Assembly (NCBI GenBank): GCA_008330645.1
Contig: VLTN01000002.1
Location: forward strand, 992,001 to 1,056,000
Length of the DNA stretch: 64,000 nucleotides
Source of the DNA: Cafeteria roenbergensis
Lineage: Eukaryota; Sar; Bigyra; Bicosoecida; Cafeteriaceae
Direction of reading: 5' to 3'
Positions 3,265 to 43,653 of the stretch are shown one piece after another. The notes below the pieces were generated by a model. That model was not told where the DNA came from and did not search any database. It saw only the letters and a list, made by a program, of their open reading frames with translations. The number at the start of each line of letters is the position of its first letter. The stretch's first letter is position 1. The translations under genes were made by a program, and so were the position numbers.

Positions 3265-4988
3265 ATGCCCGTTCGCATTGCCATTGAAGGCAACATTGCC
3301 GCCGGCAAGTCCACGTTTCTGCGCATCCTGGCCGAGGCCGGCCTGGGCTTCTTCGTGGTTCCCGAGCCGCTCTCCAAGTGGCAAGGGATTCCCGCCGACG
3401 ACGATGTCGAAATGCCAGTCAGCGCGTCGCAGGATGCTGGGATGAACATCCTAGACAAGGTGAGGCTGGACGGCAGCTCTCCCTGGAAGCTGCGGGCGCG
3501 CAGAGATTTTGAATTCTGCTCCCTGGCCGCCTGTCGACGACGACCGCTGCGCCTCGCTCCCGGGCACTACCGACATGGCTGAGCGCGGTCGGCGAGCAGG
3601 CAGAGGCACAGCGGAGCGACTCTTTCTGCGGCCTTGGCGCCGCCGCCGCAGGTGCTGGCGATCCTCTGCGAACAGTGGCGGCGCGGCCAGCGAGGTCACT
3701 CCGCCGGCCTGGCACTATTCGCCAGGCCCGAGCCGAGCTCCGCTGCTTGCGCTGCCCGACCACCCCGCCCCCCCGCCCCCAACGCGTGGTTCTACCCCCG
3801 CCCCGCGCGCAGTTCTACTCGGACCAGGAGCGGTGGGCGTTTACGTTCCAGACGTACGCGTTCCTGTCCCGGCTGCGAGCACAGCTTCGGCCGTTCGAGG
3901 ACTACGAGACCAAGCCGGAGCTTCGCGCCGCGGGCGCGGGCTCGTTCAAGGCCAAGACCGCCAAGGAGGAAGAGGGGGAGTCGGCGGCAGCTGCAGCAGG
4001 CGGCAAGCGGTCTCGCGATGGCGAGTCTGCGGACGCGGCTGGGGAGACCTCGAGCAAGCGCACCCGGGACGACAAGGCGGCCGACGCAGGCTCAGCAGGC
4101 AACGGCAGCGGGGCGGCAGCCAGCGGCAAGGCGGAGGCCGCGGCGGAGGAGGAGAAGATCCTCTTCTTCGAGCGCAGCGTGCTCTCCGACAAGTACTGCT
4201 TCGCGGCCAACTGCCGCGAGTCCGGGCTCTTCGAGGAGCTGGAGTGGCGCGTGTACTGCGACTGGTGGAAGTTCATCATGCAGGAGTTCAAGGCCCTCCG
4301 CATCGACGGCCTCGTGTACCTTCGTTGCGCGCCGGCGACCTGCCACCAGCGCCTTCACAAGCGCGCCCGGGACGAAGAGGCGGGCGTCCCGCTGTCGTAC
4401 TTGAACGACCTCCACCATCGCCACGAGGAGTGGCTCGTGTCGCGCACCTGCGGCCGGGAGTTCCCCATCACCACGCTGGTTCTGGACACCGACGCCGAGT
4501 TCGAGACCGACCCGGTTCGCCGGACCGCCATGGTGGACCGTATCCGCGCGTTCGTGGCCTCCCTCGCGTCCCAGAACGGCACGCACATCGCGCCCTCCAT
4601 CGCCCCCACGGCCAGCAACGGCAGCGGCGGCGCGGCTGCCGCAGGGCCTGCCGAGTCGTCGGCCGGTGCGGGCCTTGGCCCGCGCATCAGCTCCCGCGAC
4701 GGCACCGTCCTCATGGGCGAGATCGACGGGCTCACGGTGATGCGGGTGGGGCCCGACGGGAAGCCTCTGCCAGCCGCCGCAGCTGCGGCGGGGTCCGACG
4801 AGGACGAGGACGGAGTGCCGTCCGGCCCAGTGAAGTCTGCGCCAGCTGACGCTGACGCTGACGACAGTGGCTCTGATGCCGACGACGGGCAAGAGGCGGC
4901 GGCCAGCTCCGCAAGGGCGCCGGGCAAGGCGGCTGGGAAGAAGGGCAAGGGCGGCATCACGGCCTTCTTCGGCAAGAAGTCAGCCTGA
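3265..4988 (+). CDS. Deoxynucleoside kinase (dCK/dGK/dNK family) with PIP-like C-terminal tail
   Basis: Two exons, 3265-3459 and 3813-4988, encode 456 residues against roughly 230-280 in the family. The enzyme phosphorylates deoxynucleosides in dNTP salvage. Residues 9-17 are the P-loop (GNIAAGKST), E34-P-L-S-K-W is the nucleoside-site motif, and FYSDQERWAFTFQTYAFLSRL is the classic family block at the start of exon 2. E185-R-S is the catalytic E/D-R-S motif, and an Arg-rich lid (RLHKRARDEE, then LSYLNDLHHRHEEW) follows. Two non-family parts stand out. One is a charged, low-complexity insert at about residues 100-175, with KRSRD and KRTRDD clusters that could act as nuclear signals. The other is a ~150-residue acidic tail ending in KGGITAFFGKKSA, which resembles a PCNA-interacting box with Lys in place of Gln. 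Substrate preference cannot be read from sequence. Confidence 0.9.
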
Positions 4989-15253: not shown

Positions 15254-18200
15254 ATGTCGTCTGTCAACGACATCCGGGTGGACTTCTCAGGTCCCCAGTA
15301 CTTCAGTGAGTGCCGCGCGCGCGCGGGCTGGCGGCCGTGGCGCGCGCCCATGCAGCCGTGTCAGGCTGACGGCGCCCGTCAAGTCTGGGCGCAGCGCTCG
15401 CCCGGGGTCGTGCCGCGCCCCGCGCCCGCCACAGCCGCTCTCATCGGTGCTGGATCCCTCCTTCCGCAGCGCTCACGGCGATCATTGTCTCGTCCGGTGA
15501 GCCCTGGGCCGCGTTCCGAACTACGCGCGCGCGCGCGTCGCTCCCGCCAGCTGCGGACACGCGCCTCGCGCGCTGCTGCCGCCCGAACGCCGCCCCCGCG
15601 CCTCCTCCCCCCCCCTTCCCTGCTGTCCCCCACGCAAGGGGTCGCAGTCCTGCTCGTGTTCTTCTGGTACCAGCGGAAGTATCGTGAGCCCGGGGCGCGA
15701 TGCGGCGCGCCGCGACGCCACAGCTGCCGTCACGACGTGCCGCGACGATGGTCAATCAAAGTATGACGATGCCTTTTGCGCTGTCGACTCGTCAGCCTGA
15801 AGCGCTTCCCTCGTTGGGCGACCGATCCGCAGACAATGCTGCTGCTTGGACCAAGGTGCGCGATGGGCTGCGAAGTCAGCCATGGCGCGCCCGGAGGAGC
15901 GCTTGTCTTGACCGCCCTCAGCCGGCGCTGCCGAGCGCACGCGGGCCACGGCGCTTGGGGATTGGGCCCGTGACTGAATCTCGCAGGTCTACGTTTCGGC
16001 GGTGATGCCGGTCAACTACCTTCTGAGCCTGCTTCTGTCCGAGGTCTCGGCAGTGGTGCTGCAAGACGGAACTCGGGTGGCCATGTGAGTGCCGCGCTGT
16101 CGCAGGTCGGGGGGGGGAGCCAATGCGCGCTGACGCCGCTGGCCCTTGGCCGCCATGCCTCACCTGCAGAGCACGCTCGCCCCTCGACTCCTCCGTCGCA
16201 GTCTTCGCTACTGGGGCTGGCTTGCCAGTGAGCCATTGCACGGGCAGCAGCGCTCCTGGGCTGCCCTGCGCTTCGCCAATCGAGCCGTCCACTCCGCAGC
16301 CATGGCCCCCGTCCCGTCCGCCTCCCCTCGCCCCTTCTCCCCGTCCCATCCGCAGCCTGCCCGGTGCTCCTCCTTGACATCTTTTCGGTGCGTCCCGCTG
16401 CGCGAAGGCTTTCCGGCGCTTCGCTGCCGGATCCGCGCCGGTTTCACTCGCGCGCTTCCGCCTCTGCTTCGTCGTGTTGTCGTCTCGCAGGCGATGCCTC
16501 TGCGCAAGTCGGGCCAGGCGCCAGTGCAGGCGCTCGCCGCCATCATCCTGGACCAGCTCATGGTCATCTGCGGCGTCTCGGCCATCATCTACGGCGGCGC
16601 CGCGAAGATTGCGTTGTTTACCATGGGATGCCTCTGCGGAGTCTGTGTCTACTACCTCATCCTCTCCGCATTCTTCAAGGCGTATGCGCAGTACCCCAGC
16701 GAGGCAAAGCCGTGGCTGGCGGCCACGGCGATTCTCTTCTGCGGCGGGTGGCTCCTGTTCCCCATCGGTGAGCCACGACACGCTCCGCTCGCTGCTGGGA
16801 GGGGCGCTGGACGCTGCGCGCTGGCCAGTCGCCGCACCGCACCCAGCTCCGCGTTTGTCCCTCACTCCCTCTCTCCTCCCCCCCCTCCCCGAGCCTCTTG
16901 ACCTGCCTCCGCTGCAGCGTGGGTGCTTGGCACCGAGGGCTTCGGCATCATCTCCCCCGACGTTGCGCCTGGCTTCAGCGAGGCCTACCACGCCGTTGCA
17001 GACCTGATCGCAAAGTGCTCATACTCCTTCGTGGGCTGGTACACGCGCCAGGTGGTGCTCGCCCGCATCCTGGATCGCCGCCGCGCGGCCAAGGAGTCCT
17101 CCGCCGACGGCGCCACTCCGCGGGCGGGCGGAGCTGCAGGCTCCGGTCTGGGCGACGTGTCCGTGCCCGGTATGGCCATCAAGGGGCTCGAGTCTGCGCC
17201 CACCTCGGCCCGTGACGCGATCATGCGCATCGCGCGCGCACTCCGCGCCTTTGGTCCCGGCGCCGCCATCGTGAAGCATGCCGTCGCCGGCGCTTGCGAC
17301 GCCGCCGCCGCAGGCGTTGCCGCCGCCGCCCCCGCCATTGCCAAGAGCCTGTTGGAGGCCGCGAAGCGCGCCAGCCGCCGACGCGTCGTCCGCGTGCTGC
17401 TTGTCGACCCGGACCCCCTCGTCCACACCGCCGTCTGCGCGCGGCTCCGCAGCCTTGCCGCCGCCGACGTGAGCACCGGAATCGGGGCCAACTCCGCCGT
17501 GGCTGCGGCCTCTCTCCTGCGCCCCATCGACGCCGCCGTCGGCCCGACACCGGCCGACCCCGACCGGTCGCGCGCGGGCCCTGCGGCGCCGTCGAGCGCT
17601 CCCCGCACGCCCGCGCTCGAAGCCATGGCGCAGGCCGCCGGGCTGCCCGGCATCGAGGTGGTGGTGGAGTCGGTGTTCCGGCTCGACGACGTCCCCCTCG
17701 TCTTCGCCCGCGGCGACGAGCACTTCGACTGCGTCATCGCCACCGCGGCCACCCTGCGTGACCTGTCGGCTCTCGACCCTGCCGAGGCCCACAAGAGGTC
17801 CCTCCGCCTGTTCGGGTCCGCGTCGCTGCGGGACCACCTCACCGCCCTCACGCTTGCCCGTGGCCGGGCGGCTGCCTCGCTCGCAGCGGCCGCTGGGCCT
17901 CGCACGGGCAGGTCGTCCTCCGCGCGGCGAGCCACCCAGGACGCGTCCCACCCCGACTTCCAAGGCGCGCTCGGCTCTGGGGCGAGCGGGGCGCGCCTGC
18001 TCCGCGAGGAGGCGCGCCGCCTGCGCACCGAGGAGCCGCTCGGGCTCGCAATCAAGACTCGGGAGGTCTTTGTATCCTCTCCTCCTCCCTCCCTGCAGCC
18101 TGCTGCCGATGCGCCGGCGGGCGCGGCCGAGCAAGCGGCGCCCAAGCCCGCCGTGGTCGGTCGCTCCTCCACGCCCGACCGCACCGCCGCCGAGCGACGC

Positions 18201-19913
18201 ATGTCGCTCACAGAGGCTGCGTCGGGAGCGGTTGCCGCTGCCGACGTCCGGCGCATGATGCTGACCAAGGCGGCCGGCGTGTCCCCGCCCCGGCCCGGGC
18301 TCACCGGCGCCGCCGCCGCCCTCCAGCACTCGGCCGCCGCAGGCCCAGCTCCCGCTTCCGCCCGGTCGACGTCCGCCCGCCACCAGCGGCTGACCGAGCT
18401 GTCGTCCGCTGCGGGCCCTTCGGGCGCTGTGCGAGGAGACCTGACCTCCGGGGCGCCGATCGTGCGGGAGACGCACGTGCACCCCACGCAGCGGCTCTTC
18501 GGCCTGGTGCCCGTCGTGGCGGTGGCCTCGGACGAGGAGACCGTGGCGAGCAGCGGGGGCGCCGACCCGGCCCAGGCTCTTCGCCGCGAGCTGGGTGCGG
18601 ACCTGGTGGTCAGCGGCCTGGACGACGCTGCGCAGTGGCGCGACGTCCTCGGCCAGGTGGCCCGTGAGGCCGCGGCGCGCGGCCAGGCGCAGATTGTGCA
18701 GACGCCCGCAGCCCCGCGCCGTCGGGGCGGCAGTCCGTTCGGCAAGAACCTTCTCCACGTTCGCACGGGAGTGGAGGGCACGGACGACGAGCCGGCCAGC
18801 GGCGGGGACGACCAGTCCGAGGCCAGTCGTCGCTTCCGACGGCCCGGGCGATCGCAGTCCCAGCACAGCCGTCCTTCGCGCCGGACCGGAGGTCGGGCTC
18901 GCAGCCGGCCCACGGCGGGGGGCAGAAACCGCGGCAGTGCGGCCCCAGCGCACGAGCACGAGGTTCTCCCAGCCACCCCCGCCGCGGTGGAGTCCATGCT
19001 GGCGCTGCTGCGCCCGGCCGAGTCCGTGGCGGCTGCCCGCGAGGCCGCCGTCCGTCGCTACGCTGCCGCCGCCAAGGCGCTAGCCCGCGCCATGGCCGCG
19101 GGGGCCGTGTCCACCGCCGCCACAACCGCAGCGCGGGCAGCGCTGGCCGGCTCCCTATCGGCCAGCGGAATGGCCTACCTCTATCGGGACCGCAGCGCCG
19201 CTGAGCGCCGGCTCCCCGGGCTGCGAGGGCCCGCCGACGAGCAGCAGGGCACCGCAGCAGCGCTCCCGCAGCTCGCCATCGTGCTTGGCCAGGAGGCCGC
19301 CGACGATTTGACCCTGGTGCCAACGGATGCGGTGGAGTGGCGCCGCCACGCCCGGTCACACTCTCGCAACCGCTCCCGTCGCACTGCCGACGGGGACGAC
19401 AGCGGGCATCTGTCGACCAACAGCCACGGGCGCCTCATCCAACGGCGGGATTCTGCCGTGATGGCAATGAAGGGGGCCTTCTTCGGCGACAGCGCCCAGC
19501 CCGACGACGCGGACGAGCTGTGGGCTCAGGGGGAGCGGCCCCGGCGCCCCGCGAGCCGGGAGCAGCCGCTTCCAAGACCGGCCGCGCCCGTCGCCGTGGA
19601 TGTCCACCCGCAAACTCCATACAGCACCGCCAAGCCTGCCGCCCGGCGCTCGCCCGACGGCGCACCGGCTCACGATCAGCCCTCCCCGGCCGAGGTGATG
19701 TCGAACAACCCGATGCGCAGCCCGCCCCCGCCCAGCTACCCCGGCAGCCCAGCCGTCCACACTGGACAGGACGACGCGGCGGGCTCCGTCCAGTCCGTCT
19801 CCGCTTCCCGCACCACTTCAGCCGACCGCAAGAGCGTGCCCTCGCGGACGCACGGCTCCGCGATCGTTCGCGACCGCGGGCTCGGGCGCTACAACCGCGC
19901 CCGCCGGGCGTGA
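15254..19913 (+). CDS. Channelrhodopsin-like microbial rhodopsin with long receiver-like tail
   Basis: Nine exons: 15254-15305, 15470-15496, 15648-15683, 15833-15855, 15987-16084, 16202-16227, 16356-16387, 16491-16767 and 16918-19913, 1,188 residues; all phases agree. The first ~240 residues form a seven-helix retinal protein. Helix 3 reads ILRYWGWLATCPVLLLDIF (residues 79-97), helix 6 to 7 GGWLLFPIAWVLGTEGFGIIS, and helix 7 VADLIAKCSYSFVGW with the retinal Schiff-base lysine K223. From memory this aligns best with Chlamydomonas channelrhodopsin-2: Cys89/Asp119 match its C128/D156 gate, and Asp219 matches D253. Gly84 sits at the primary counterion site (E123), and Met53, Ser60 and Ser64 at the pore glutamates E90, E97 and E101. 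Residues ~348-475 (VRVLLVDPDPLV...) look like a degenerate receiver domain. The rest is low complexity. Exon 3 could instead begin at 15639 (AAG acceptor), adding three residues. Transport ability is inferred, not shown. Confidence 0.88.
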
Positions 19914-23955: not shown

Positions 23956-26900
23956 TCATGAACGCCCGTCGCCAACACCAGCAGCCTCATCTAGCTCCTC
24001 TGAGGCGGAGCGGTCCTGTGAAAGCGGCCGTGAATCCGAGCGCCAGGTCGACAGGTGCTCCGCGGAGCCGTCCTGGGGACGAGCGAGCGCGGCGGACCGG
24101 CCGGTGGACAGCGACGCGTGGTGGTCGACGGAGCCATCCGGGGCACCAGAGAGCGCGGCGGACCGCCCGGTGGACAGCGACGCGTGGTGGTCGACGGAGC
24201 CGTCCTGGGGGCCAGAGAGCGCAGCGGACCGGCCGGATGGAGGGGGGTCGTGGAGGTCAAAGGAGCCCGCGGCCGAGGTGGCGGCAGCGGCCGCTGCGGC
24301 TGCAGCAAACCCTGCTCCAGCGACGCTAGCGCGGCTGGACTCGGCCTCGAGGCCTGAGTCCAGCTCGGCCGCTTCTCGGGCGGCCCTGCGAATGTCCCTT
24401 GTGCGGCGCCGCTCCTCCCATAGGCTCATCATCCGCGCGTATTGCGCGCTGGGCTTGAAGGCGGGGTTGGTCGGGTCAGACTTGAGCCTGGGCCCGTCGC
24501 CCGGCTCCCTTGCCCCGAAGAAGGCCTTGTCCGACCCCAGCGCCTCGATGGCCACGTCGTCCAAGCCGCTGTCGTCGCTGTCGGCATCACGCTCGTCTCG
24601 CTCAACTCCCAGCGCCTCCAGCTCCCGCTCCTCCTCGGTCTCAAGACCCGTCTCTGCCACGTTGGTCATGCGCTGCGTGCGCCGAGCGTACGTCGCCACG
24701 GCGCGCTGCTTGTTCCGCCACCACTGCTTCGCGGTCTTCTGCCACCTCTTGAGCGTGTTGTTGCGATAGTACTCCGCGAGGGCCATCTTCTCCTCCTGCT
24801 TCCGCGCCCAGCGGACAAAAGCGGCCACGCGCTTCCGCTCCTCCGCGGCGACCTGCCTGCCGATGTACCCGCGGAACACGCGCTGAATGTCCAGCGAGGC
24901 CTTGGCGCGGCGCTGCTCCAGCTCCTTGCGCAGCCGCTCCGACTCCGCCCACCGGAACACGCGGAGTCGCTCCAGGAAGCCCCGCACCGTCTTCTGCATG
25001 CGAATCGCCGCTGCGTGCCGGGCGCGCCTCTTGCGCTCTTCGCGCGACCGCTCCTCCCGGGAGCGCTTGGCCGCCACCTCTTGGCGCCCGTGGATGCGCT
25101 CCCATCCCTTGCGCGCCATGTCGTCGGCCTGGGCCATGGCCTGGATCCGCTTCTTGCGCGCCTCGGCAGCAGCGTCCATCCGCTCGCGCTCCTCCGTCTT
25201 GCGCTTGATCTTGGGCCCGGAGGCCAGCAGCTCGGCGTCGCCCGACCCCTGCCACACCGCCCGCTGCTGCTTGATCTGCACCGAGGCCCGGAAGTAGTGC
25301 AGGGTCATGAGGAACATGGCAATCTTCAGCGTGCGCTCCGTCTCGTCCATCGCGTGCTCCACCTCCTGCCGCTGCTCCACAGCGCGGCGCAGCGCGTCTC
25401 TCATCTTCACCGCCCGCTGGATCGCCATCCACCGCTGCACCGGGGCGAGGCGCCCGTCGCCTCCGGCGAGGCCGGTCAGCTCGCCGAGCCCTGCCCCCAC
25501 GGCCAAGGCAGCTGCCGCGGGGTCCCCGGACCCGCGCGCAGCGTCGATGAGGGCCTGCGTGCGCGCCTCGGCGTCGGCCACGGCGCGGTGCGCGGCCACA
25601 GGGTCGTACACCACCATGGCACCCTGCGAGGCACCAGCGGGCCCGCCAGCGTGCTGGTGCGGAACCATGGCCCCGGCGGCCGCACCGCCCCTTGCGCCCG
25701 GAATGGCGCTGCCCACGTTTGTCGGCGCCCCGCTTGCTGGGCGACTGGCGGCAGCAGTCGAGCCGCCACGCCCGCCCCAGTCGAGGCCCGCCGAAGAGTC
25801 CGTGGCCGGCGTTCCCGGCAGCCGGGCCATGACGCCGGCCAGCCGTGCGTGCGCTGCGGCCTCGGGTCCGTCTGCCGACAGCCCCACCCCGTCGAGGGCT
25901 GTCTTGGCCATCTCCGCCTCGGTCAGCTGCCCCGCGGCCATCTTGTCGAGCAGCACGAGGCGCGCCCGCTCGGCGGCATCGGCTGGGATCACGCTGGCTG
26001 CATCCACAAAGGCCTCGGGGAATCGCTCCGCCGCAGGGTCAAGCTCGCGCAGCGTGGCGGCAGCCTTGACGTTTCGCAGAGGGTCGCCGACCGCCGGCGC
26101 CAGCCCGCGAGCGGCGTCCGCCGCAGCGGCCCGGGCGGCGGGCCCCTGGAGCGAGAAGAGCCGCGCGGCCTCGGACAGGGACTCGAACGGCCGGAGCGCC
26201 CCGTCGCCGCTGCCGATGCCCGACACCGCCCCTGCAACCTGCAGCTTGGAAGAGCGCTCGCCGAAGACCCATCCCTCCAGCATCCACTCGAGAATGTCGT
26301 CCACGATGCCCTGCGCCACCTGCCTCGAGACGATGCGGTTCGCGTCCGCCTCCAGCGCCGAGATGGCCTCTCCGCGCGCTGCCTGCTGAGGCACTCCGTG
26401 GAGCGACGTGGTGGTGATGAAGGTGGAGGAGCTCGAGTGCGCGAAGTGGAGCTCGCGGTCGATGTCGATGAGCCTGAGCCGGTTCTTCAGCTCCTGGGCC
26501 TCCGTTGCAAGCTCCTCGATCGCGTCGTCCACCGTCATGCGGTGCGTGCCACCTCGGAGGTACGACAGGACGACTCGTGACTCGCACATGATGTCGTCCT
26601 CCGGCAGCACGCGCACACGCAGCAGCTCCTGGTCCACCTCAGCCAGCCGCGCGCGGAGCTCGTCGGGGTTCTCGTGCGGAGTCCACTGCTTCCCCAGGAG
26701 CGGGTTGGGCCCCTCGCCCGTGCTGCTGGAGGCAGACCTTCCTTGGGCGCCTCCCACTGCAGCCTGGCCAGGCGCCGACGGGTCCCGGCCTGCGGCTGCC
26801 GCCGCGCGCTGCAAGCGCCGCTTGCGCAGCAGGCCGAGCCGGCCCTGCACGGCGCTGGCCATGCCCCCGTCGCCCCGGGCCCTCGCCGCCGTCGTTTCCG

Positions 26901-29900
26901 CCTGCTTGGTGGCCAGCTCCTTGGCCTTCATCTCCCTCGCCCGGCGAGGGGTCACTGGCTTGTCTGGCGCGCCCCACAGGGCAAGCGCCCCGATTTCGCG
27001 AATTGGGTCCTCTGCGTCTGGGTCAAAGTCGGCGTCGGTGATGTCTTCCCCCAGGTCCGCGCGCAGCTGCAGCATCGCCGGGTCGTCCGTGTCGATGTCG
27101 TACGTGATGCGGCGGCGGCCCATGCCCGCGTCCTTGAGCTTGGCCTCGACGGCCTTGCGCTCGTTGCGGAGCTGCGCGGCCGCAGCCACCATGTCCGTGT
27201 GCTCCTTCCCGCCGCGCGACGACGCGACTGCAGAGTGCTCCAGCTCCTTCAGCTCCCGCTCCAGCGCTGCGGCGCGCGAGCTCTCCTCCTCTTCCATCTG
27301 GCGGATGACCTCGTCGCGCGCCTCGGCCAACTTGGACTCGGCCTCTGCCGCCCGCTCCAGCGCCTCGGCGTGCCGGTCGTCGGCCACCTCGGCGAGCAGC
27401 GCCTCCTCGACGTGCTCTCGCTCGAAAATCATCGACAGCAGCACCCTGTCCAGCTCGCGCTCAAGCTCCACTCGAAGCGTCGCCGTCTCGAAACGCTGCT
27501 CCGTGCCGTGCAGCACCGGCGTGTCCATGTGCGGGTTGGGGCACGCTTGCGCGCGGTCCAGCTCCACCAGGAGGTCCCGGCACCGCCGGTCAACATCCGC
27601 AGTCAGCTTCACCTCCGGCATTTCTTGGTTCGTGCGAGACTGCACGACTCGGCGGTCGCCGGCGGCAGCGCCTACTAGCCCGCTCGCAGCCATCACAGCC
27701 CCCGGAACCTGCCCTCCTGCGCCCCCACCAGCGCTGCTGGCAGCAGCTGCCGAGCTTGGCCCCCCTGACGCGTCGGTGATGGCCAGCTGAGTGCCGCTCG
27801 GCCCGGCGGCACGGCCGCCCTTGAGCACAAGCTTGTTCCAGCGCTCCTGCATCTGCCTGGCGCGCTGCGAGAGCAGGTCCTTGAGCTTCACCGGGGCCTG
27901 CTTGGGGATGGGAACCGCCGTAAATGCCATGGAGAACAGGGAGCCCGCGGCGTGGAACTCCAGGCCGTCCTTGCGCACGCGGCCCGCAGCCGGGTCCGGC
28001 TGCCCGGCAAGCTTCTCCCGGATTTTGGCGGCAGTTGGCGACAGCACGGCCATGCTCCTCGGGTCCTCCCCCTCCGCTGCCGCGCTCGAAGTCCCCTTGA
28101 TGTTCGCTGCGAGGATGATCGCCCCGGACTCGTCCTGATCACCGAACCCCGCTGCAGGAGGCGCGGCCGGCGCGCCGGGCCGCCCGCCCCCGCGAGTCCG
28201 AGACGGCGCCACCTTTGCCATGGCCTGCAGCCCGGGGCCGGCGCGCGTGTCCATGCCAGCGGTCACCCGCTGCTGCAGGCCGCTGCGGTTTCGCGTGCGG
28301 TTGTTCATCTCAAGCTGCGCGGCCTCCGCCTCTGACATGCCAGTCTTGTGGCCGACCGGGCCTCCTCCAGCCGGGGCGTTGGAGTTCTTGCTCAGGTCGC
28401 CGATGGCCAGGCCGGACTCGTGCTTGGCTGCCTCCATCTTGATCGCCAGGCGCCCTGCAGTGGCGGCCATGCTGGGGCCCCTCGGCGTTGCGAGGCCTTC
28501 GCGGCCGCCCGCCGTCAGCGCGCCGGCCTCGCGGTGTTGTTGCTCTCCCTGGTGGTTGTGGTCTTGCTGCATGAAGGGCGGGACCGGGCGGTCGTGAAAC
28601 CGCGCAAGGAGCTGCCTGACACGCCGCTGCTCCCTGTCCAGGTTTTGGACGGGAACAGTCGCGATGCGCAGCAGCTCCGCACGCGAGAAGGTGCACACGG
28701 GCAGCTCTGTGCTGGCCCAAGGCTCGTCCTCTGGGCGAGGGCGCGCTGTGTGAGGCGGCTGCGCGTCCTCCTCGTCGTCCTCGTAGTCGCTCAATTCGGA
28801 GGCCGCCAGAGAGCTGCCCGCCGCAGCGCCTGCGCCCTGAGCGACGACCCGCTCGCGGGCCGGAGCAGACGCAGCTGTGCCAGGGCTGCGTCGCGGCGGC
28901 GCGCCCGTCGCTGGGGCCCCAGCCTGGTGCCCCTTATGGCCGGGCTCTGGGCTGCTTCCGGCCCGGGGCGGGGAGCGCGAGCGAGGGCGGCCGGCGAAGC
29001 CCCCTGCGCTTCCGGCGCGAGGCGGCGGCGGCGAGCTTGTCGCTGGGCCGGAGCCCGCCAAGCTCGCTGACCCAGCAACTGAGCGCTGCGCCGCGACGGA
29101 GCGCGATGGGGACGACGTCGAGCGGGTGCGGTCCGGGCGCGGCTGCGACAAGGAGCCGTCGCCCACTGCCAGGTCAGCAGCCGCCTCTTCGCGCGCCCTG
29201 GCCAGCTCGTCCACCGACGCCGCCTGCGACCGCTGCCCGATTCCCGCAGCCGCCGACGAGTGCGACACGCTTCTGGAGCGCGAGTACTGCTCCTTCCCCA
29301 TGGCTGTGGCAGTCAGGTCCCAGCCCGCGGCCGCTGCGACGTCTCGCAGCGAGGGCGCGGAGTTGGCAGCTGCGGGACGGCTCGCGGACCCGCTGGTGCC
29401 AGGGCGGTGAGCCGGGGAGCCCTCGGGCGTCTCCGAGTCCGCGCGAGTCCCCGCAAGGCCCGAGCCCGAGCTCAGGCCTGTGGAAGGGCGAGCGAGGGCC
29501 TCGGGGTCTGCGCTGGCCATCCCCGCGACCAGCTCCGCGGCCCCCGGCGCGAAGGTGCCGGACCGGCTCAAGCTCTGCGCGCCCTCCTCGCGGGTGGCGG
29601 GACGGGAACGCGGCGGCGCCCCTGGGGTGGCGGCGCGCTCGTGGGCGACGGCAATGATGCCTGACACGGCCTGGCGGCTGCGCAGGCCGACGACGTCTTC
29701 CGCAGGAGGCGCGCCCTGGTCCTTCAAAGTCGGAGACTGCCCAGAAAAGGGCAGCATCGGCCGGGCCAGCGGTGCAGCCGGGGAGGCGGCCCGCGGCCCT
29801 CCCGGCTTGCCCCGGACCTTGCTAGCAGCCTCTCGGATGGCGTCCTCGCGGCCGGGGGTGAGGGCGAGCATGCGCTCCATCTCCGTCTCGCTGTCCTCTT

Positions 29901-32900
29901 CATCGTCGCCCCCGTTACCCCTGGCGGGGTCCGCCAGGTGTGCGTACAGCTCCGGCCGCAAGACGCGGTCCATCCCCGCCCATTCCGCCTCAGCGATGGT
30001 CAGCTCGCTGATGGCCTTGCGGCGGACGCGCTCCGCTGGCGTCAGCTGGTCGGACCGCACTTGAAGCTTGGTGCCGCCGTGCCCGCGCTCCGCCGCCCAG
30101 GCCGCCAGGGTCGGCCCGAGCGTGACGTACTCCACGTCGGAGGCGTCAGGCTTGGGGGCCGACGCTGACAGCACGAGGGCGTGGCCGTCCACCACCGCCG
30201 TGGCCGCCGCCTCCGGGCCAGCGGCGGGCCCGACAGTCGCGCTGTCGCCCTCCCGAACCAGCGGCAAGCGGCCGGCGGCGCTGGCCTGGCCGTGCGGCGG
30301 CACCGGCACAGGGCCGAGGGCGGCAGAGGCGTCGCCGCCCGCGGACTGCAGCGCCTCAGCAGCGCTCCGCTTGCCGTCCGTGTCGATGAGGTGCTCCAGG
30401 CCGAACTTGGCCAGGAGGCTCGCCCTGCGGACGCGTCGTCCCCCCGCTGCCTGCTCAGCCACGGCCATGGGCCGCAGCGCGCGGGTGGCAGCCGGGACGT
30501 ACCGGCGGTACTCGCGCACAAACGCCAGGAGCGCGCGCACCTCTGCCTCGCGCTCCGCTCTGGCCTCCCGCAGGGCGAGCAGCCCTTCCTCGATCTGGGT
30601 CTTCTCGTCCTTGCGGCTGGCGTGAGAGCGCACGAGCGCTGCAAACTGCTCCTCGAACCTGCCGAGGCGCCGGATCACGACCACGCGCACTGCGTCGCTG
30701 AGGTCGAGGCGCTGGTTCAGCCGGCGCTCCGCGTTGAGCCGTTTCGCTCGTTCGTGGATCGCGCGGTCCTGCGGCGAGAGCGCGTCCAAGTCCGTAGAGC
30801 CACCGCTAGAGCTCTCGCCGGAGCTAGAGTCGTCGTCAGAATCATCGTCCGAGTCGTCGTCAGTCCCCGAGCTGTCGCTGTCGTCGCCTGTTTCGGTGTC
30901 GGTCTCAGACTCGGATTCGGAGCTGGGGACGTTTTCTGCGTCGCTGCCAAGGTCGCGCCGGATGATGTAGCCCTTGTTGAGCGCCTCGCGCAGCTTCGTC
31001 GTCTGGAGGGCGTTCTCGTTCAGCGCCTTGTCGGTGCGGACGAGCATGTCGCGAACCAGGTGGCGCTTGCGGGCGCCGAGGCGGTAGGCCAGGTCGATGT
31101 CCGCAGTCTCTCCGCGGCACTCGGGCACCCGGGCCAGCTTCGAGTCCGCAGTGCGCACGCAGCCCTCCACCACGTCGCGCGCCGCGTATGCCAGCTTTGC
31201 CACAACGGAGACGGAGTACGTCCCCGCAGTCAGGCCAAAGACGCAGACGCGGTACCTCCCAGGCAGCACGGGCACGTGCAGGGGCTCGTGGCGGATGGTG
31301 ATCCTGCCAATGGAGGCGGGGCCGCTGGGACACGTGTCAGAGCGGTCCACCCAGCCGATGGCAGTCCTGGACATGGCCACCAGCTGATCCTGGGGCACCC
31401 CCCGAATCTGGGGCACGGGCCGAAGCAAGGGCGGCCGCTGCAGCTCCGCCAGCACCGAGTTCTGCACGCGGGTCACGCGCCGGCCGTCCCGCTGCGTGCC
31501 CGCCCAGTCCACCACGTCCATGTCCACAGGCGGCCCGTGGAAGGCGATGGACTCGGCACCAGGCCCTGGAATCGCGGCGAGCCTGGCGCGCGGATCCGAG
31601 CCTTCCGCCAGCGCGAGCGCGCCCGACTCTTCGCCGTCCTCGGCAAAGCGGAAGGTTGCCATGCCGCCCGCGTCAAAGGACGCCGCAGTTGGCGTCTCGA
31701 TGCCTCCCTCGCTGTCAACGTCATCCACTTCCGGGATCGCGTCCTGCCCGAAGAGGGAGTCGTCGCTCGCGTCGCTTGCCCGCCGCGTTCCGGCTCCCGT
31801 GCCGGCCGCGCTCGCGCTGTGCTGGTCTGCGATTTGCTTTGCCGCAGCCGGGGTGAGGCCGTCCTTGGCGGCCGCCGCGGCCTCTTCAAGAAGCGCACCC
31901 ACCCGCATGCTCTGCTGCCGCATGAGGGCGCGGGCGGGCCGGGTCCCCGCTGCGCGCTTCGAGCCAACGGCTCGTGCCGCAGCAGCTCGCGCGGCCGCCG
32001 CCTTGTCCTTGGCCCTGGCCTCCTCCTGCGCCTGGTACGCGTAGTCGTCCGGCTTGCCGAGGGTCAGCGGCACGGGCCGCTCGCCGAGCGCAGCCCTCTC
32101 AAAGTCGGCCTCCAGCTGCTCCAGCAGCGCCTGCCCCGGTGGAACCAGTGGCTGCCCAGTGGGGCCGACCCCGAGCTCGTCGGCGCGGCGCAGCCGCTCG
32201 AGCCCCTCGGCGTCCACGGGAACCGCCGGGTAACCGATCGGCCCGTCGAAGCGGATGCCGAGCTCCGCGGGCACCGGCTCCGCGAGCAAAGCCGCGTCGG
32301 GCTCCGCCGCACCGCGGGCATGCTTGGGAGGCGCGCGGCCCGGGGCGTCGGTGTCAAACGGCACAAGGGGGACGCTGCGGTCCCACCCCCCGCCGCCGTC
32401 AGCGCGACCAGTGTCCCGCCCCGTCGAGGCGCCTCCAGCCCAGGGTTCCGCGTTGACGGAGAAGTCTGTCCGGGACGTGGGCAACCGATCGGCCTGCCCC
32501 GCAGGCGAAGGCCGTGGCGGGGAGCCTGCCGGTTTGGACCGCAGGCCCGCTCCTCGCCCTGTTCCGCCCTGCCCCAGCCCGGTCAACGTGCCGTCGAAGC
32601 CCGCGCTTGCCGCGGGAGCGCCGCGGATCGTGTCATCGACGTCGCCCACCCATGTGCGGCGCATGCCCGCGGGCGAGCGGTCGCCTCCGAACCGGTGGGA
32701 CGACGCTGGCGCCCGCTGTGGCGCGTTGGCGAGGGCGAGCTGCGCCTGTCGCATGGCCGCCGCTGCCTTGGCGTATGGCTGTCCCACGGCGCCGGCTGGC
32801 GCTTCCGGAGGCTCCACGAACGCGTCCCGGTACAGCCCGACCTGCAGACGGGCAGGAACATACCGGTTCGTCGCCTCGTCAAAAGTGCCCTTGAAGGTGA

Positions 32901-35900
32901 CGGTGACGGTCAGGTCGACGGCGACGGGCAACGCCCCAGGGCACCCGGTCTCGTCCTCGTATGGGGTCTTGGGGGCTTGCGGCTTGCCCGCGCCCTCGCG
33001 CTGGCTGGCTGCATTGCTGCCCCCGAGCAGGCCGTATGGGTCCGCCCGAGACTCTGCCGCGGCGCGGGACGATGTGGCCTCGCGCGGCGAGTCCGCCTCG
33101 GAGTCCTCGGGATCCTCGTCGTCCTCGCTGTTGAGCCCGTCGTCGTCATCGTCCGCGGCGTACCCGCCCTGGCCCACGAGCATGGATCCCTGCCGGCTCA
33201 GCGCGGATGCCAGTGCCACGGGGTGCTTGCCGCCACGGGCGATGCGGCGCCTCCGCCTCTCGTGGCGGCGTGCCTGCACTGCGCGCCGGCGGTGCTCCTC
33301 GTCGTCCGGCGCGGCCCACCGAACCCTGCCCAGCCCAGCAGGGCCCGGGCCGTCCAGCGGATCGAAGCCCTCTTGGACGGCCGCCCACGTGTCGGCACCA
33401 GCGTCTCCCGCCCCGACCGTCGCAAAGTCACCAGCCCGCACGCCGTCGTCTCCAGGCGCAGTTCGGCCCGCAGGAAGCCCCCTGGTGTCCAGCCGACTGG
33501 CTGCACCCCGGGGGGCAGCGGTCAACGAGCCGCTACCGGCAGAGTCGGGGCGCCGGCGGCCTGCGCGCCCGCCCTCGGCAAAGCCAGGGAAGCCAGTCGC
33601 AGCCGAGGGCGGCGCCAAGGGCGTGCCAGCGCGGCTGAGGCGGTCAGCGGTGTCCGGCGGCACGTCCCCTCTGATCCCGCCGGTGAAGGTCGGCATGAGA
33701 GGGTCTACAGAGCGAATGCTGTCGAGGGCCGAGCGAGGGTCGGCAGCGGCCGCTGCGGCGCCTCGCCGCGTACCCGACGACGGCCGGCGCGACGACGCGA
33801 TTCGGCCGGACCCCGGCCGGGTGGACGCAGGGTAGGGCAGCGCGGAGCTAGACGCCGACATGGGGCGGGAGAAGCCGTGGTCCTCAGGTCCTGCCGCAGC
33901 GGCGGCGGCGGCTCCTCCCGGGCCGTCCCACCCCGTGGCCGCGGAGCCCGGGCGCGCGTTGGTCGTCCCCTCTCCGGGAGCCTCGTCCCATCCAGTTGCC
34001 GCCCAGCTCCGCGGGTCTGCGCCCCGCCGCCAGTAGCCCCCGGCGCGGCTCTGCGCCTTGCCGAACGCGCGCGGGCCGTGGCCCACGATATCGGAGAGCG
34101 AGCCGCAGACCTCGAACCCGTGCTCCACGCGGCCGCCTTCGCTAATGCTTGCCTCCGACACGCTGAGCAGGGTGGAAACCTGCGCTGAGCGCACCAGCAC
34201 GGCTGTCGACGCAGCCGCAACTGCAACTGCGGCAACGTTGGAGCGATCGCCGTCCGCGTCGGCCAGCACAAGCTCCGGCGTCACGTCCACCTCCCCACGC
34301 ATGCGGAGCCCCTCCTTGACCAGCTCACGCGCCTCGGGGACCTCGGCCAGGCCGTACAGAACCGGGGTGGGCGACGCGGCAGCGAGGTCGTACACGGCCC
34401 TGCCGGAGTCGGTGCCGTAGGCCCGCATCAGGAGCTGGGCGCGCCGCTCCTCGGCCGTGGCAAGCCTTGCGGGCGGCGTGGCCAGAATGCGCTGGAGCTC
34501 GTCGCGGGACCAACGGCAGGGGGCGCCCCCTGGCGGCCTGCGGAGGCCGTCTCGCCGACGGGCGTCCTCAACCTTGGCCTTCTGGGCGCGGGCCTGGCAC
34601 TCGATCTCCCGCTGCTCGGCCGCCAGCCGCCACCGCCGCCGCTCCTCCGACTCCCTCTCGCGCTGCCGAAGCGCTCCCTTGGCCGCCTCGCGAGTTGCCT
34701 GGCGCTGCTGGAAGTGGGCTTCGAGCGCGTCGATCAGCCCGCCGTCCGCTGCTCCGGCGGACCCGGGAGGCGCAGCCGCCGCTCCCTGGGAGGCCGCGCC
34801 CGCCGAGGCGCCGCGCCGCAGCGCCCCCCCGGAGGTCGGGCGGCTTGCCCTCCCAGTGGAGACCCCGTCCCCGTCGTCAGGCTCGCTCTCCGAGTCGCGC
34901 TGGCCGCTGCCACCGCCGAATCTGCTGCCAAGCCCGCGGCCACCGCTCCCGTTGCCTGCGGCCGCCGGGTCTTCGGCCACAGGGCCGGGGGAAAGGTACA
35001 GGAACGGCCGGACGACCACGTCAAGCGCCACCCATTCTTTTTCCTCCTCCGACCGCGCGTGGGCTGGCTTGGTTCGCGCAACGAAGCCCCTGGCAACGGC
35101 CGCGGCTGCCGCCGCCCTCGCGCCGCTGTCCTGGTCAGCGAGGCGCTCCGCCTCCTCCCCGGCGCCGTAGAGGAAGTGGGAGAGGATGCCGTGCACTCGC
35201 AGGTGCTCCTTGTCCGACATGAAGGCGAGCGCCTGCAGCGGCGACGCGGGGAGATCCGCCAGCGACTCAATCACCTCGCGCGGAATGGCGCAGCGGTACT
35301 TGCGGTCGCTGCGAAAGGCGTCCTTGTCCTCGGAGCTCAGCCCCACGTAGAGCTCCGGAAACATCTTCCGGTCCATGGCCACGAACTCCTTTTCCTCGTC
35401 CGTGCGCTCGGAGGCAGGCTTCCAGCGCGTGACCACGGCGAGCTTGGAGCTGTCGGTAACGGCAATCTCCTGCTGCGAGGCGGCAGCCAGGATCTTGATC
35501 GCCAGTTGCTGCTCCGTGAGGGAGCGCGCGGAGCCGGGCGTTGACGCTGGGCGGCTGCCTCCGCCCGCGAAGGGGACCACGCTCTCCGCGCCGAGGCGGT
35601 CTCGCGCAGCCAGGGCCAGACTGCCCTTGCCAGACACCGACAAGACCGGCGTGCTCACGCCAGACGTGGAGCCGGAGAATGGCGCCGTGGGCAACGCCGC
35701 CAGGGGCGCGTCGGCAATGGCGGCCTGCGGTTGCTGCTGCCGCTGGCGGTCCATGAGCAGCGCCTGCTCCGCGGCCCGGATGGCCGCCGGGTCGATCACC
35801 CAGGCGTACTCGGCGCCGTAGCGACTGAGGCGCTCCCCAGAACGGCGCATGTCGACGATGAAGGTGTCCAGCTCCTGCTGCTGAGCGGTCACCCCTGCCC

Positions 35901-38900
35901 GCCACTGAGCGCACGCATCCCGCCGGGTGAGGAGTGCGCCGTACGGCGTGGGCCGCGGGCGCCCGCCACCTTCCGCGGCGTCCCTCCCGGCCGCCTCGGC
36001 TGCATTGAGGGCGCGAATGGCGGCGCGGATAGGGTCGTCGTCGTCGTTGCCGGCCGAGGTCATGGGCACCTCCCGCATCACCTCCACCACCTGGCGCAGA
36101 GCCGACTCGAGCAGCGCCAGGTCAGACGCCGCCGCGTCGATCTCGGTGTCGGCGCCTTCGATGCGAGCCCGCAGCTGGCGAAGGCGGGCCTCCCCCTTCT
36201 TGATGAGCGGGCGGAGCTTTGCCAGCTCCTGCTTGATGTACCGGGCCAAGTCCACGCGCTTGATGCGCTGGGCAGCGTCTTGCCACACCACCGTGTCGAT
36301 CCAGCGCCCCTTGGAGCTCTTGCAGCGTCGGAACTCCACCCGAAGCTCCTGGAGGCGCTGCCGGCGCCGCACCAGCAGCTCCAGCGCCTTGGAGGCCTTG
36401 GCCCCAGCGTCCTCCTGCACCTGGGTCGCGCGCTGCCGGACGGAGCGCACCTCGCGGGTGAGGCGGCTCACTCGGATCCGCGAGTCCAGCAGCTGCTCCT
36501 CCAGCTTGGCAACCGTGTTGACCGACAGCTGCGTCGTCGCTGCAGTGGCGTCAAGCTCCAGGGAGGCCATGTCCACCTGCTCCTGAAGCCGCTTCAGGTA
36601 CCGGCGCTGCGTCGCGCGGTACTTCACGAGCTCGTCCACCTCGGCGTTGACGGTCTGTAGCATCACCTGCTCGTCGCGAGAGAGCGAGCCGCGCCTGCGC
36701 AGCTCCGCGCCGAGCGCTTCCTGTTCTTGCTTGGCCCGGCGGAGCGCAGTGTCCACGCCCCCGACCTCACGCTTGCGCGCGTCCACGGCGCGGCTGAGCT
36801 GCGTGATGCGGTGGTCGATCTGGCGCCACCGCCGGACCACGCCCTTGCGCTTGACCCGGGCGGCCCGAACGGCGTCCACGAGCCGTTCAGCGCCGGACGC
36901 GGCCACCCGCGGGTCGCTCGACTGCAGCCCAAAGTCGTCCGCCTCGCCTGCCCTGATGGCCGCCACCGTCTGAGCCCGCATTTTCTCTCGCACGTCCATC
37001 AGCCGCTGGGCCTTGCGGCCCCGGCCCTTGGCGGCCTTGTCGAGCAGCGCCAGCTTCTGGGCGGCCGCGTCGGCTGCCTCGTCGCTCGCTGTGTCCCGCA
37101 TCAGGCTGAACTGCCTCTCGCGCGCCATCTGTCGCTCTGCCTCCAGCTCATCGTCCTTGGCTTGCTCCTCCACGGCGGCCGACAGCTCGTCTTCCAGCCC
37201 CATCGCTTCCCGTGCCGCCTGCTCCCGTGCCATCTCCGCTTCGACTGCGCGCTCCTCGTTCAGCTCCCTGGCCTCGTCCGCCATGGCCACAAACTGCCTG
37301 CGCTGCGCGTCACCCGACGACGCCTCGGCCGTAAGCTCCAGTCGCTTTTTGCGACGAAGCTTCGCCACGCGATCCTGCCTGGCGCGCTCCGAGCGCTCCC
37401 GCGCTTGCTCTGCCTCTGCCTCCAGCGCCTCCTCCAGTGCGGCCAGCAGCTGAACCTCTGTTCCCTCGCTGCTCAGGCCTCGGCGCTCCAGCTCCTCGCG
37501 GATGAGGGCGACGCCCGCCAGCCGGCGGCTCTCGGACCCCACAGCCCCGCGGGCGCTGAGGGAGTCGCCGGGACCGTCCCGCCCGCGGCCCGTGCTCCCC
37601 CCACCGCCCCGAAACGAGCTGCCGCTCATCGGCCGCACCACCATGGTTCCCAGGCGAAGCCTCGCTCCGTCGTTGTCGCTGCCCGGAGAGCCGCCCGAGC
37701 GCTTGAGGATGCCCTTGAGCGTGCGCCCCTCCTCTCCGCCGTGCGGGCCTCTCGAGCTGTGCCCAGGCACCGCCGCGTCGCTGGGATCTTGCCACTCAAG
37801 CAGCAGCGGGCCGTCCGCTCCGGCCGAAGCAAGGGCCGTGCCCGGAGACGTGGCGGACGACTTGCGGCCCCAAAAGACGGAGGCCACCGACCCAGTGGTG
37901 TCCAGAAGCATCAAGGGGCCGTCAGGCCCGCTGGGCGGCACCGTGAACTCGGGCTCGTGGACGAGGCCGCCCTCCGGCCTCGGCGTTTGAGGTCGCATCA
38001 CAAGCCGTCCGAGACAGAGCTCTTCAAGGGCCTGAAGCACGAACGAGCGGCGCTCGTGCATCACGCTGTGGCCCGCCTTGAGCCACACAACGTGGGTGGG
38101 GTTCGTCTGGAAGCTGCCCACTTCCTCGATGTCCTCGAAAAGCGAAAAGTCCTTCTCTGTGATGGTCGCATCCTCCACGCTTCCCCCGCGCACCGCCACC
38201 GCGGTCGGGGGGGGCAGTTCGCTGCCCTGCGAGCCTGCCGCTCGCGCGGCATCAGGTTCGTCGGTGGACGCGGTCGTCGGGGCGGCGGCCGCCTCAGCTG
38301 ACGCAGAAGCGACCTGCGACGAGGGCGCAGAGAGCGACTCTGCCTCCGTCGCTCCGTCCAGGTACAGGGCGCGAAACCGCCGGGAGGGCGGCGATCCCGC
38401 AACGGAGAGAAAGTCCGCGAAAGAGTGGCCACCGCTGTCCGGCGCGTTGACGATGCCCTTGCCCCCACCGGCAAGGGACCGAGCGCGGGCCGCATGGTGC
38501 GCCTGCAGCGGGAGCACGAACGCATCGTCCGTGCTGGCCACAAACAGCATGGGGATGTGCATCTGCTTCAGGGGCGCGCGGAGGTCACGTGCCCGCTTCA
38601 TGCCGCGCGCAAGCGCTGCGATTCCCAGGTCCAGATACGGGTCGCCATCCGCGAGCGGCCGGTTTCCGGCGAGCAACACCTGCATTGCCGTCGTCGCCCC
38701 GATGGCCTCGCAGTATTGCTGGCCCAGCAGCAGACGCTGCACTTGCTCCGTGGCCAGCGCGCGGACGGGAGCAGGCCCAGCTGCGTCGTCTGGACGGGGC
38801 AGGCGAAGCGAGCGCTTGGCCGTGCTGTCGAGCGCGCCGTCGTTCCAGGCGCTGCCAGCTGCGGACGAGCGCGGGCGCGACTCGCTGGCTCCAGTGCTGC

Positions 38901-41848: not shown

Positions 41849-41889
<41 letters not shown>

Positions 41890-43653
41890 GGCCGCTCCCG
41901 AGCTGCCCCACACCTCCCCGCCCATGAATCGCATGCGAACTCGCCGCTCGCCTGCTGCAGCCCCCGCCCGACCGCCAGCGCCGGGCATCCCTCCCAGCTC
42001 GTCGCGCGCAAGGGTCCTGATGCTGCGCAGGGACGACGCTGGCTGGCCGCCGTCGTCGTCGAACGAGCTCAGCCTGCCTCGGGGGGATGCTTCGCTGGCC
42101 GCGCCGGAAGCGGTCGCCTCCTCGACGACGACGTAGCCGTGGTCGGCGGACGGGCCTGAGGAGTCCTGCCGCTGCCGCCTGGACTCCAGCAGCCGCCCGT
42201 GGGCCGACGGGGCGCTGGCCGCTGCGGCCTGTTCCGCGCCCGTCGCCGCCGCCGCCTCGCCGCCTCGCCGCCTGGAGGCCCCAGTGGGCGACACCGGCAC
42301 GGCCGCGCCCGTGTCCCGCTCTGCGGTCGCCCGCTCCATGAAGAAGCGGAACTCGCGAAGCCCGACCCGGCCGTCGCCGCCTCTGGTGAATCGCTCCAGC
42401 AACGTGCTCATGGCGCCCTCGGGGAGGCTGATGCCCAGGTCTTCAAGCCCACGGCGCAAATCCGCATCTCCAGCGCGGCCGCTGCCGTCGCCTAGCGGGT
42501 CGAAGTGGGTGAACGCCGCCTTGATGTCCACGCCGCGCTGCGACGAGCGCGCCACGAGCATGCGAAGCTCCGCCTCTGCCTCGTCCGCAGCCCTCATGAG
42601 CTCCTCAGCTGCAATGCGGGCAGCAGTGTCCCTGTCAATGACGGCTCGAGGGTCTGCCCGCATGTCGAGAGCCTGGGTGAGCACCTCCGACACGTGCGAC
42701 AGCCACAGCTTGCCGCGAAGGTCAACCGCCCAGTGCGCCACAAGCCTCAGCACCCGCACGCGAGAGTACGGCATGCTGTACTTCCCGAGCGCCGACTCGG
42801 TCGACGAGGCGCTGTCCTCGGAGTCGGAGCCGCGAGCCACTGGCAGCCGCGTGGCCGGCCGGGCGATTCCCACCCCGCCGCGCGGTCGGGCAGCGGAGGG
42901 CTTCCAGTCGCGGAACCCCGCGTCGACTGTGTACTCCTCCGCGTCTGGCTCTGCAACGGTGGGCGCCTTCTGCGCGATCTGCACGAACTTGGCGAGGCGC
43001 TCCGTGGTGCCGTCCAGCGCCTCGAGTAGCTGCGGCTTGAACGGCCGCGACGCTGCCGCTCGCTCCAGGGCCTCGTCGCGACCAGTCAGCTCCCCTGCGT
43101 CGACAAGCCTGGGGCCGAGGCGAGTGAGCCGGCGCCGGAACAGGCCGAACAGGCTCGCCTTGCGCGGCAGCACCGGCTGCAGCGCCGCCACCCTCGCAAG
43201 CCACACCGGCTGCTGGTGCACCTCCGTGAAGTCCCGCAGGGACAGAGTTTCCTGAGCCCCGGTGGCGTACCAAACAATCGCAAACGGCGCTTCTTCTGCC
43301 GCGCCTTGGCCATTTGTGTCCAGGAACTCGACGAACCGCGCCCTTACCGAAGCCATGCGCGCCCGGGCAGTGCCTGCTGGCAGCACCGCGGCGCCCTGCT
43401 GCCCCTGCTCCACGACATGCGCCGCTGCGTGCGCGGGGCGTTGCGCCTCGGCCGCTCCGGCCAGCCGGCGCCTGACCAGGTGGCCGGACGCTGAGGTGCC
43501 CACCCACCGCTCCGGCACCCCGCGCGCCAAGAGCACCGTGTCGATGATGTTGAGGCGGCACGGCAGCTCGAGGCTGCCGGCGGCATCCCAGACGGTCTCA
43601 AACACCCAAGCGCCCGGCCGCCGCTCGCACTCGTTGGCCCCCTTGGCCGCCAT
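23956..43653 (-). CDS. Giant multidomain protein, 6,565 residues (possibly ciliary/cytoskeletal), single exon
   Basis: One uninterrupted 19.7-kb frame; the start ATG has a good context (gccATGGcg). I do not recognise the family. Visible parts in order: a conserved N-terminal region with AHWAVDLRGKLWLSHVSEVL; an EF-hand-like pair at about 371-431; polyalanine near 590-600; an alpha/beta-hydrolase-like core around 1140-1870 whose elbow reads LMGSGLGG, so the usual nucleophile serine is glycine, though an acid (FVASTDDAF) and histidines (GGHSF, AGHSVMHERR) remain; a SAP-like helix pair at ~2045-2075 (REELERRGLSSEG); long coiled coil at ~2080-2600; repeated EW/F-x3-MD...PELY blocks near 2760, 2870 and 4560; paired SRxELxRI blocks near 3050 and 4985; and two IQ motifs at ~6210-6275. 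It ends in a three-copy 22-residue repeat. Much of the rest is low complexity. IQ, EF-hand and coiled coil suggest a calcium-responsive cytoskeletal or axonemal scaffold, which is inference. Hidden in-frame introns cannot be excluded. Confidence 0.8.
24058..24240 (-). repeat. Three-copy 66-bp tandem repeat in the giant gene
   Basis: Near the 3' end of the giant coding region a 66-bp unit recurs about three times, encoding GRSAALSGPQDGSVDHHASLST with small changes. The two inner copies are nearly identical, so the expansion is recent. Confidence 0.8.
41850..41888. repeat. (CAG)13 microsatellite encoding polyalanine
   Basis: About 13 CAG units on the plus strand, read on the minus strand of the giant gene as GCT codons, giving a polyalanine run around residue 590-600. 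Confidence 0.85.

Follow-up and report, generated by a model that had tools for sequence, protein, structure and literature searches.

A nine-exon gene for a divergent candidate anion channelrhodopsin with a long C-terminal tail

The question raised by this locus is whether a run of very short exons really specifies a channelrhodopsin, a member of the family that provides the main tools of optogenetics, and which ions such a protein would pass. An initial annotation of the window, i.e. of the whole 64,000 nucleotides that were analyzed, had placed at 15254-16767 nine exons whose splicing in phase yields a seven-helix retinal protein. Rebuilding of the gene from the raw sequence bore this out. 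Nine exons on the + strand (15254-19913) were joined in phase to 1191 codons containing neither a stop nor a frameshift, and the deduced protein of 1191 aa comprises a seven-helix retinal domain (approximately aa 1-240) followed by a tail of about 950 aa. The interval given at first covered the gene but was too short, as it ended ahead of exon 9 (16918-19913), which harbors helix 7 and the lysine. From exon 1 to exon 9 the sizes are 52, 27, 45, 23, 98, 26, 32, 277 and 2996 nt, and the introns (103-164 nt) are of the GT-AG type in all eight cases, with GTGAG or GTGCG as donors. Helices 1 to 3 had been assigned to five exons of 23-98 bases; in the rebuilt model seven exons in this size range, exons 1 to 7, span the region from the N-terminus to helix 3.

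Exon 1 (15254..15305, +) contributes the start codon, whose ATG is preceded by GCCGCC, and the N-terminus (MSSVNDIRVDFSGPQYF), and ends at a GT donor. Helix 1 begins in exon 2 (15470..15496, +), which is flanked by GT-AG signals in phase and falls within a hydropathy peak at aa 17-35. Homology support exists for neither of these two exons (about 26 residues), the evidence for them being splice signals and phase only. The remainder of helix 1 (GVAVLLVFFWYQRKY) lies on exon 3 (15639..15683, +), whose 3' border was set by spliced alignment and whose 5' border by splice signal and phase. Spliced alignment also yielded both borders of exon 4 (15833..15855, +; phases 1 and 0), a 23-nt exon for the loop between helices 1 and 2 (HNAAAWTK), of exon 5 (15987..16084, +), encoding helix 2 with Met56 and Ser63 at the positions of ChR2 Glu90 and Glu97, and of exon 6 (16202..16227, +), encoding the first half of helix 3 (LRYWGWLA) with Gly87 at the position of ChR2 Glu123. 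The TCP motif resides on exon 7 (16356..16387, +), where Cys92 (codon 16358-16360) corresponds to ChR2 Cys128; the 5' border was again obtained by spliced alignment, the 3' border by splice signal and phase. Helices 4 to 6 are encoded by exon 8 (16491..16767, +), including Asp122 (codon 16551-16553) at the position of ChR2 Asp156, while exon 9 (16918..19913, +) contains the last part of helix 6, then helix 7 with Asp222 and the putative Schiff-base Lys226 (codon 17013-17015), the tail and a TGA stop codon. Hydropathy disclosed helices 1 to 6; helix 7 remained below the threshold used and was therefore placed by alignment.

The model was compared with chance. The window was searched in six frames (891 fragments) with a profile of nine rhodopsins, none of which came from the window. 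Only 2 fragments fell below E=1, namely the unspliced frames of exons 8 and 9, which lie on the same strand and match consecutive parts of the profile (116-194 at 1.4e-11 and 196-247 at 5.6e-6, respectively); other rhodopsin-like frames were not found in the window by this search. With a narrower profile of four channelrhodopsins the two frames matched more weakly (8.9e-5 and 0.0039), and an additional match at 0.013 to an unrelated transporter frame marks the noise level of this profile. The small exons were addressed by a spliced dynamic-programming alignment with GT-AG introns, using a profile free of window sequence and, as controls, 60 dinucleotide shuffles and 90 other segments of the window. 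With the intron penalty set to 6, all four introns from exon 3 to exon 7 were recovered to the base with a score of 56.8, compared to maxima of 31.5 for the shuffles and 28.0 for the other segments. A penalty of 4 gave 64.8 versus 32.7 and 31.2, while raising it to 11 left just the two introns that separate exons 5, 6 and 7 (42.6 versus 26.3 and 26.0). Neither the 5' border of exon 3 nor the 3' border of exon 7 falls within the scope of this alignment.

A pseudogene or a wrongly joined model, which we regard as very improbable, might be suspected from the missing homology support of exons 1 and 2, from the mere 23 nt of exon 4 and, if the DNA belongs to Cafeteria, from eight introns, far more than the mean of 1.67-1.89 per gene given for genomes of this genus (PMC6972860, excerpt). 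The 1191 codons run without interruption and the alignment found the introns from exon 3 to exon 7 automatically, both of which argue against this explanation, as does base composition, for GC at the three codon positions was of the coding type in the spliced exons 1-8 (0.57/0.43/0.83) and flat in the seven introns between them (0.72/0.73/0.74). The gene is real and well supported.

To verify the protein, the initial annotation had proposed an HMM search with Pfam Bac_rhodopsin and a phylogeny. In the former, Bac_rhodopsin (PF01036) was the sole Pfam family above cut-off for the spliced protein (3.2e-29; 102.4 bits versus 24.6). Among sequences of solved structures (PDB), 125 matched below 0.001, and the best nine of them were channelrhodopsins (2.8e-23 to 8.6e-14): iC++ (2.8e-23), ChR2 (3.5e-23), then C1C2 and variants, KnChR (6.4e-20) and Chrimson (8.6e-14). 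The best match with another label was a chain called Rhodopsin (3.3e-13, 52.9 bits), and bacteriorhodopsin-I reached 1.8e-12. The lead over such proteins amounts to about 33 bits for ChR2 (85.6 versus 52.9) but is small for Chrimson (54.8). GtACR1 was absent from the best 60 of the 125 matches, which were those listed. In the alignment, identity was 28% to ChR2, 25% to Chrimson, 24% to C1C2 and 20% to GtACR1.

The phylogeny gave a less clear result. In a tree of 10 rows the chlorophyte channelrhodopsins, GtACR1 and the protein formed one group with a support of 71/58, and its channelrhodopsin grouping in a tree of 12 rows obtained 71/59. When the protein was constrained in the 12-row tree to bacteriorhodopsin, archaerhodopsin-3 and NpSRII (p-AU 0.186), to ChRmine, GtCCR2, GtCCR4 and HcKCR1 (p-AU 0.188) or to GtACR1 alone (p-AU 0.162), none of the groupings was rejected. 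Because the support in these small trees is weak and the rival groupings stand unrejected, the protein is assigned to its family chiefly by scores and motifs and less by the tree, and the trees do not establish the new lineage that the initial annotation had proposed in the event of channel activity.

The unrejected constraint with bacteriorhodopsin (BR), archaerhodopsin-3 and NpSRII would leave room for a proton pump or a sensory rhodopsin of the BR type, and Met125 and Ala225 align with BR Met118 and Ala215. Yet the best match outside the channelrhodopsins scored far below ChR2, though just below Chrimson, helix 3 exhibits TCP where BR has TTP, and the position of the proton acceptor Asp85, without which a pump of the BR type fails, is occupied by Gly. 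We therefore hold this origin to be most improbable. Similarity scores and motifs support the identification of the product as a eukaryotic photoreceptor of the channelrhodopsin family, predicted to be of channelrhodopsin rather than pump type, in agreement with the first assessment. Met118 and Ala215 have been called characteristic of red-shifted rhodopsins, but blue-absorbing ancyromonad channels possess the equivalents of both (PMC11888301, excerpt), for which reason no color is claimed for the protein. Relatives were found neither in viral contigs (queries: the protein, the alignment, GtACR1 and Chrimson) nor in prokaryote genomes; these scans were seeded by short peptide patterns, so that distant relatives would be missed, and had no positive control. 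A DNA pattern for the TCP region likewise gave 0 matches, but as it extends across the intron between exons 6 and 7 it was set aside as a poor test.

For the comparison of individual residues, positions were matched by alignment to the ChR2 numbering. The seven-helix domain aligned with few gaps to the chlorophyte channelrhodopsins CrChR2, C1C2 and Chrimson and to iC++. Kept are R120 (R84), T127/C128/P129 (T91/C92/P93), D156 (D122), D253 (D222) and K257 (K226), the Asp lying four residues ahead of the Lys. The TCP motif and the Cys/Asp pair equivalent to C128/D156 had thus been recognized properly; lysine, helix-7 Asp and pair had been numbered K223, D219, C89 and D119, each three too low for a slightly different N-terminus. 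Chrimson exhibits SCP instead of TCP and lacks the Asp of the pair. At helices 6-7 the sequence LGTEGFGIIS resembles LGPEGFGVLS of ChR2. Unlike the chlorophyte proteins, to which identity is 24-28%, the protein has four extra residues before helix 7 and an unrelated tail, and it lacks six glutamates. The likeness to ChR2 on which the initial annotation had relied does not extend to the pore, where E82 is replaced by T48, E83 by K49, E90 by M56 and E97 by S63, E101 is opposite a gap and, at the active site, E123 is replaced by G87. Hence none of the five glutamates along the pore of chlorophyte cation channels (82/83/90/97/101), or of six if position 123 is included, was kept. K93 of ChR2 corresponds to N59.

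These replacements bear on ion selectivity, whose prediction from sequence has been described as a major problem that is still unresolved (PMC12448745, excerpt). Anion channelrhodopsins (ACRs) are generally poorer in glutamates than chlorophyte cation channels, and all ACRs known by 2022 carry a non-carboxylate residue at the position of BR Asp85/ChR2 Glu123 (PMC8818676, excerpt), a trait present here as Gly87. Going by these features, a divergent, anion-conducting channelrhodopsin seems the probable product, if with considerable reservation. Position 123 is without carboxylate also in some chlorophyte cation channels (PMC8818676, excerpt). Furthermore, Glu82 and Glu90 are retained in most ACRs (PMC8406140, excerpt), and that the protein has Thr48 and Met56 at these sites would speak against an anion channel. 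Glu90 is, according to the same excerpt, also missing from prasinophyte and Labyrinthulea ACRs, so that retention of the two residues does not strictly define an ACR; Glu82 is described there as the TM2 glutamate that the family conserves best, and ChR2 expression suffers when it is replaced (PMC8406140). GtACR1 from a cryptophyte, the sole natural ACR compared, shares the non-carboxylate residue at the Glu123 position, reduced glutamates and the TCP motif. It differs in keeping the homologues of Glu82 and Glu90 and in lacking that of Asp156, and at 20% identity it is no closer than the other proteins, which would likewise count against an anion channel.

If the protein is an anion channel, it may operate as follows. 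All-trans retinal would form a Schiff base with Lys226, and Asp222 would presumably serve as counterion because the positions of ChR2 Glu90 and Glu123 are taken by Met and Gly. Light would isomerize the retinal, the Cys92/Asp122 pair (Cys128/Asp156 in ChR2) would time the gate, and a pore would open along helices 1, 2, 3 and 7. This pore would have little negative charge and most likely pass anions such as chloride, given that the six pore and active-site glutamates of ChR2 all give way to Thr, Lys, Met, Ser, a gap and Gly. The roughly 950 residues of the tail are probably cytoplasmic and mostly disordered and might anchor the channel or regulate it. By analogy with green algae, the task of the protein could be light-steered swimming.

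The same loss of glutamates is compatible with a light sensor that is channelrhodopsin-like but non-conducting, in which the Schiff-base proton moves inside the protein and the signal is passed on via the long cytoplasmic tail. Four Chlorodendrophyceae sequences free of these glutamates gave no channel current, and three Chlorophyceae proteins with only Glu82 gave signals read as proton transfer (PMC8406140, excerpt); signals typical of proton transfer were also described for the rhodopsin CabR1 of Cafeteria burkhardae (PMC9765531, excerpt). The length of the tail and its coding signature throughout would suit such a sensor. In the Chlorodendrophyceae, however, the helix-7 Asp is displaced, whereas D222 is at its normal place four residues before K226, and no output domain was found in the tail among Pfam, NCBIfam and PDB sequences. 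We consider a sensor of this kind unlikely, though to be taken seriously.

It is distinctly less plausible that the protein is a cation channelrhodopsin whose pore departs from the usual, as in the ancyromonad NlCCR. By description, this channel resembles the protein in that its TM2 lacks carboxylates and its counterion position is neutral, in spite of which it conducts Na+ (PMC12448745, excerpt); it differs in this conductance and in that the helix-7 Asp is replaced by Glu (PMC11888301, excerpt). Among the matches listed, the natural proteins closest by score are cation channels of the green lineage. On the other hand, every ChR2 glutamate tied to cation conduction is missing, and the top score belongs to iC++, an engineered chloride channel from which glutamates were removed, albeit by a trivial margin over ChR2 (85.9 versus 85.6 bits). 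The glutamate-free Chlorodendrophyceae sequences without current and the Na+-conducting NlCCR bracket the prediction and illustrate that a sequence does not disclose channel activity, and for this reason the anion channel was given most weight and a non-conducting relative an appreciable share. A further, doubtful proposal goes beyond these readings: the protein could be a working light-gated channel in spite of the lack of six glutamates, Lys at position 83 and Gly at the counterion site, with selectivity determined by other residues and a signaling role of its own for the roughly 950-aa tail, and would then represent a separate subfamily.

Channelrhodopsins have been described from the bicosoecid Cafeteria. 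Three of them (CarACR1, CarACR2 and a third; mBio 2021) were reported to conduct anions in HEK293 cells, and most members of the wider group tested along with them keep Glu82 and Glu90, absent here (PMC8406140, excerpt). Compared by description, the Cafeteria ACRs share with the protein a non-carboxylate counterion position, going by the general rule for ACRs (PMC8818676, excerpt), and a genome GC content of 70-71% (PMC6972860, excerpt), the window having 71.5%. The window may derive from this genus, but GC content by itself does not show it, other protists (pavlovophyte haptophytes, Selenastraceae and Aureococcus) being GC-rich as well. The gene could be identical to, or an orthologue of, a published Cafeteria ACR. 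That channelrhodopsins from an organism of matching base composition have already been published (PMC8406140, PMC8163842; excerpts) is a further reason not to regard the new lineage initially proposed as established; the protein is a new member of the channelrhodopsin family or possibly one already described. Being a natural protein in which the gate pair persists while all six glutamates are lost, it would allow the electrostatic rule to be tested cleanly, and the locus illustrates that in GC-rich protist genomes receptors of the channelrhodopsin type can be concealed by exons as small as 23-98 bases.

The tail follows the seven helices within exon 9. Third-position GC was the highest in all ten blocks of this exon, and the opposite strand of the tail contains open frames of 690 and 686 aa with a less coding-like codon-position pattern. 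An open frame of at least 990 aa occurred in none of 200 shuffles; as the shuffles at this GC content still averaged 416 aa, with a longest frame of 872 aa, the length of the tail's open frame alone is modest evidence. The tail had no accepted match in Pfam, NCBIfam or PDB sequences, the sole PDB-sequence match up to E 10 having an E-value of 1.1. Channelrhodopsins usually possess a C-terminal domain of unclear role that may take up as much as half of the chain (PMC12448745, excerpt).

A receiver domain was considered for 17373..18707 (+), where three pieces separated by low-complexity stretches looked receiver-like by eye. The joined pieces did not match Response_reg and gave only DNA_alkylation at E 0.2, under cut-off, and a single-sequence AlphaFold2 model of the contiguous stretch had a mean pLDDT of 38.5, so that the candidate was dismissed. 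Residues 381-435 of the tail model formed, at low confidence, a strand-helix-strand-helix arrangement. A literature search for channelrhodopsin in combination with receiver domain found no paper.

The surroundings of the gene are evenly GC-rich (0.676-0.759 per 2-kb bin). Virophages are low in GC, and a large low-GC island as integrated virophages would make was not seen in the window. Neither tRNA genes nor Rfam matches at gathering thresholds were detected in the window, and a scan for bacterial promoters and terminators, uninformative for a eukaryote, gave 0 hits. The genes recognized are ordinary eukaryotic ones, coding for RPN6, a deoxynucleoside kinase, a patatin-type lipase, NPR3, SHMT, a sugar transporter, PGAP1 and a beta-propeller protein, with the SHMT gene located directly upstream of the rhodopsin gene.

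Some other frames of the window deserve mention. On the - strand, 23956-43668 is an uninterrupted frame of 6570 aa, in which third-position GC was the highest in 13 of 13 blocks examined (one of them tied). Its product would be a giant protein rich in Ala, Arg and Gly; searched as two halves, it gave only a weak IQ motif in Pfam, under cut-off. A second frame on the - strand (50244-52988, 915 aa) matched the beta-propeller of beta-alanine-activating enzyme (1e-67), all families found being of the propeller type. It was strikingly similar to the designed 'Cake' propellers (1.7e-108), so that its blades look like nearly identical repeats. The deoxynucleoside kinase (3513-4985, +; 7.8e-38) terminates in a C-terminal tail, KGKGGITAFFGKKSA, that resembles a PIP box, which suggests that the enzyme may be linked to PCNA.
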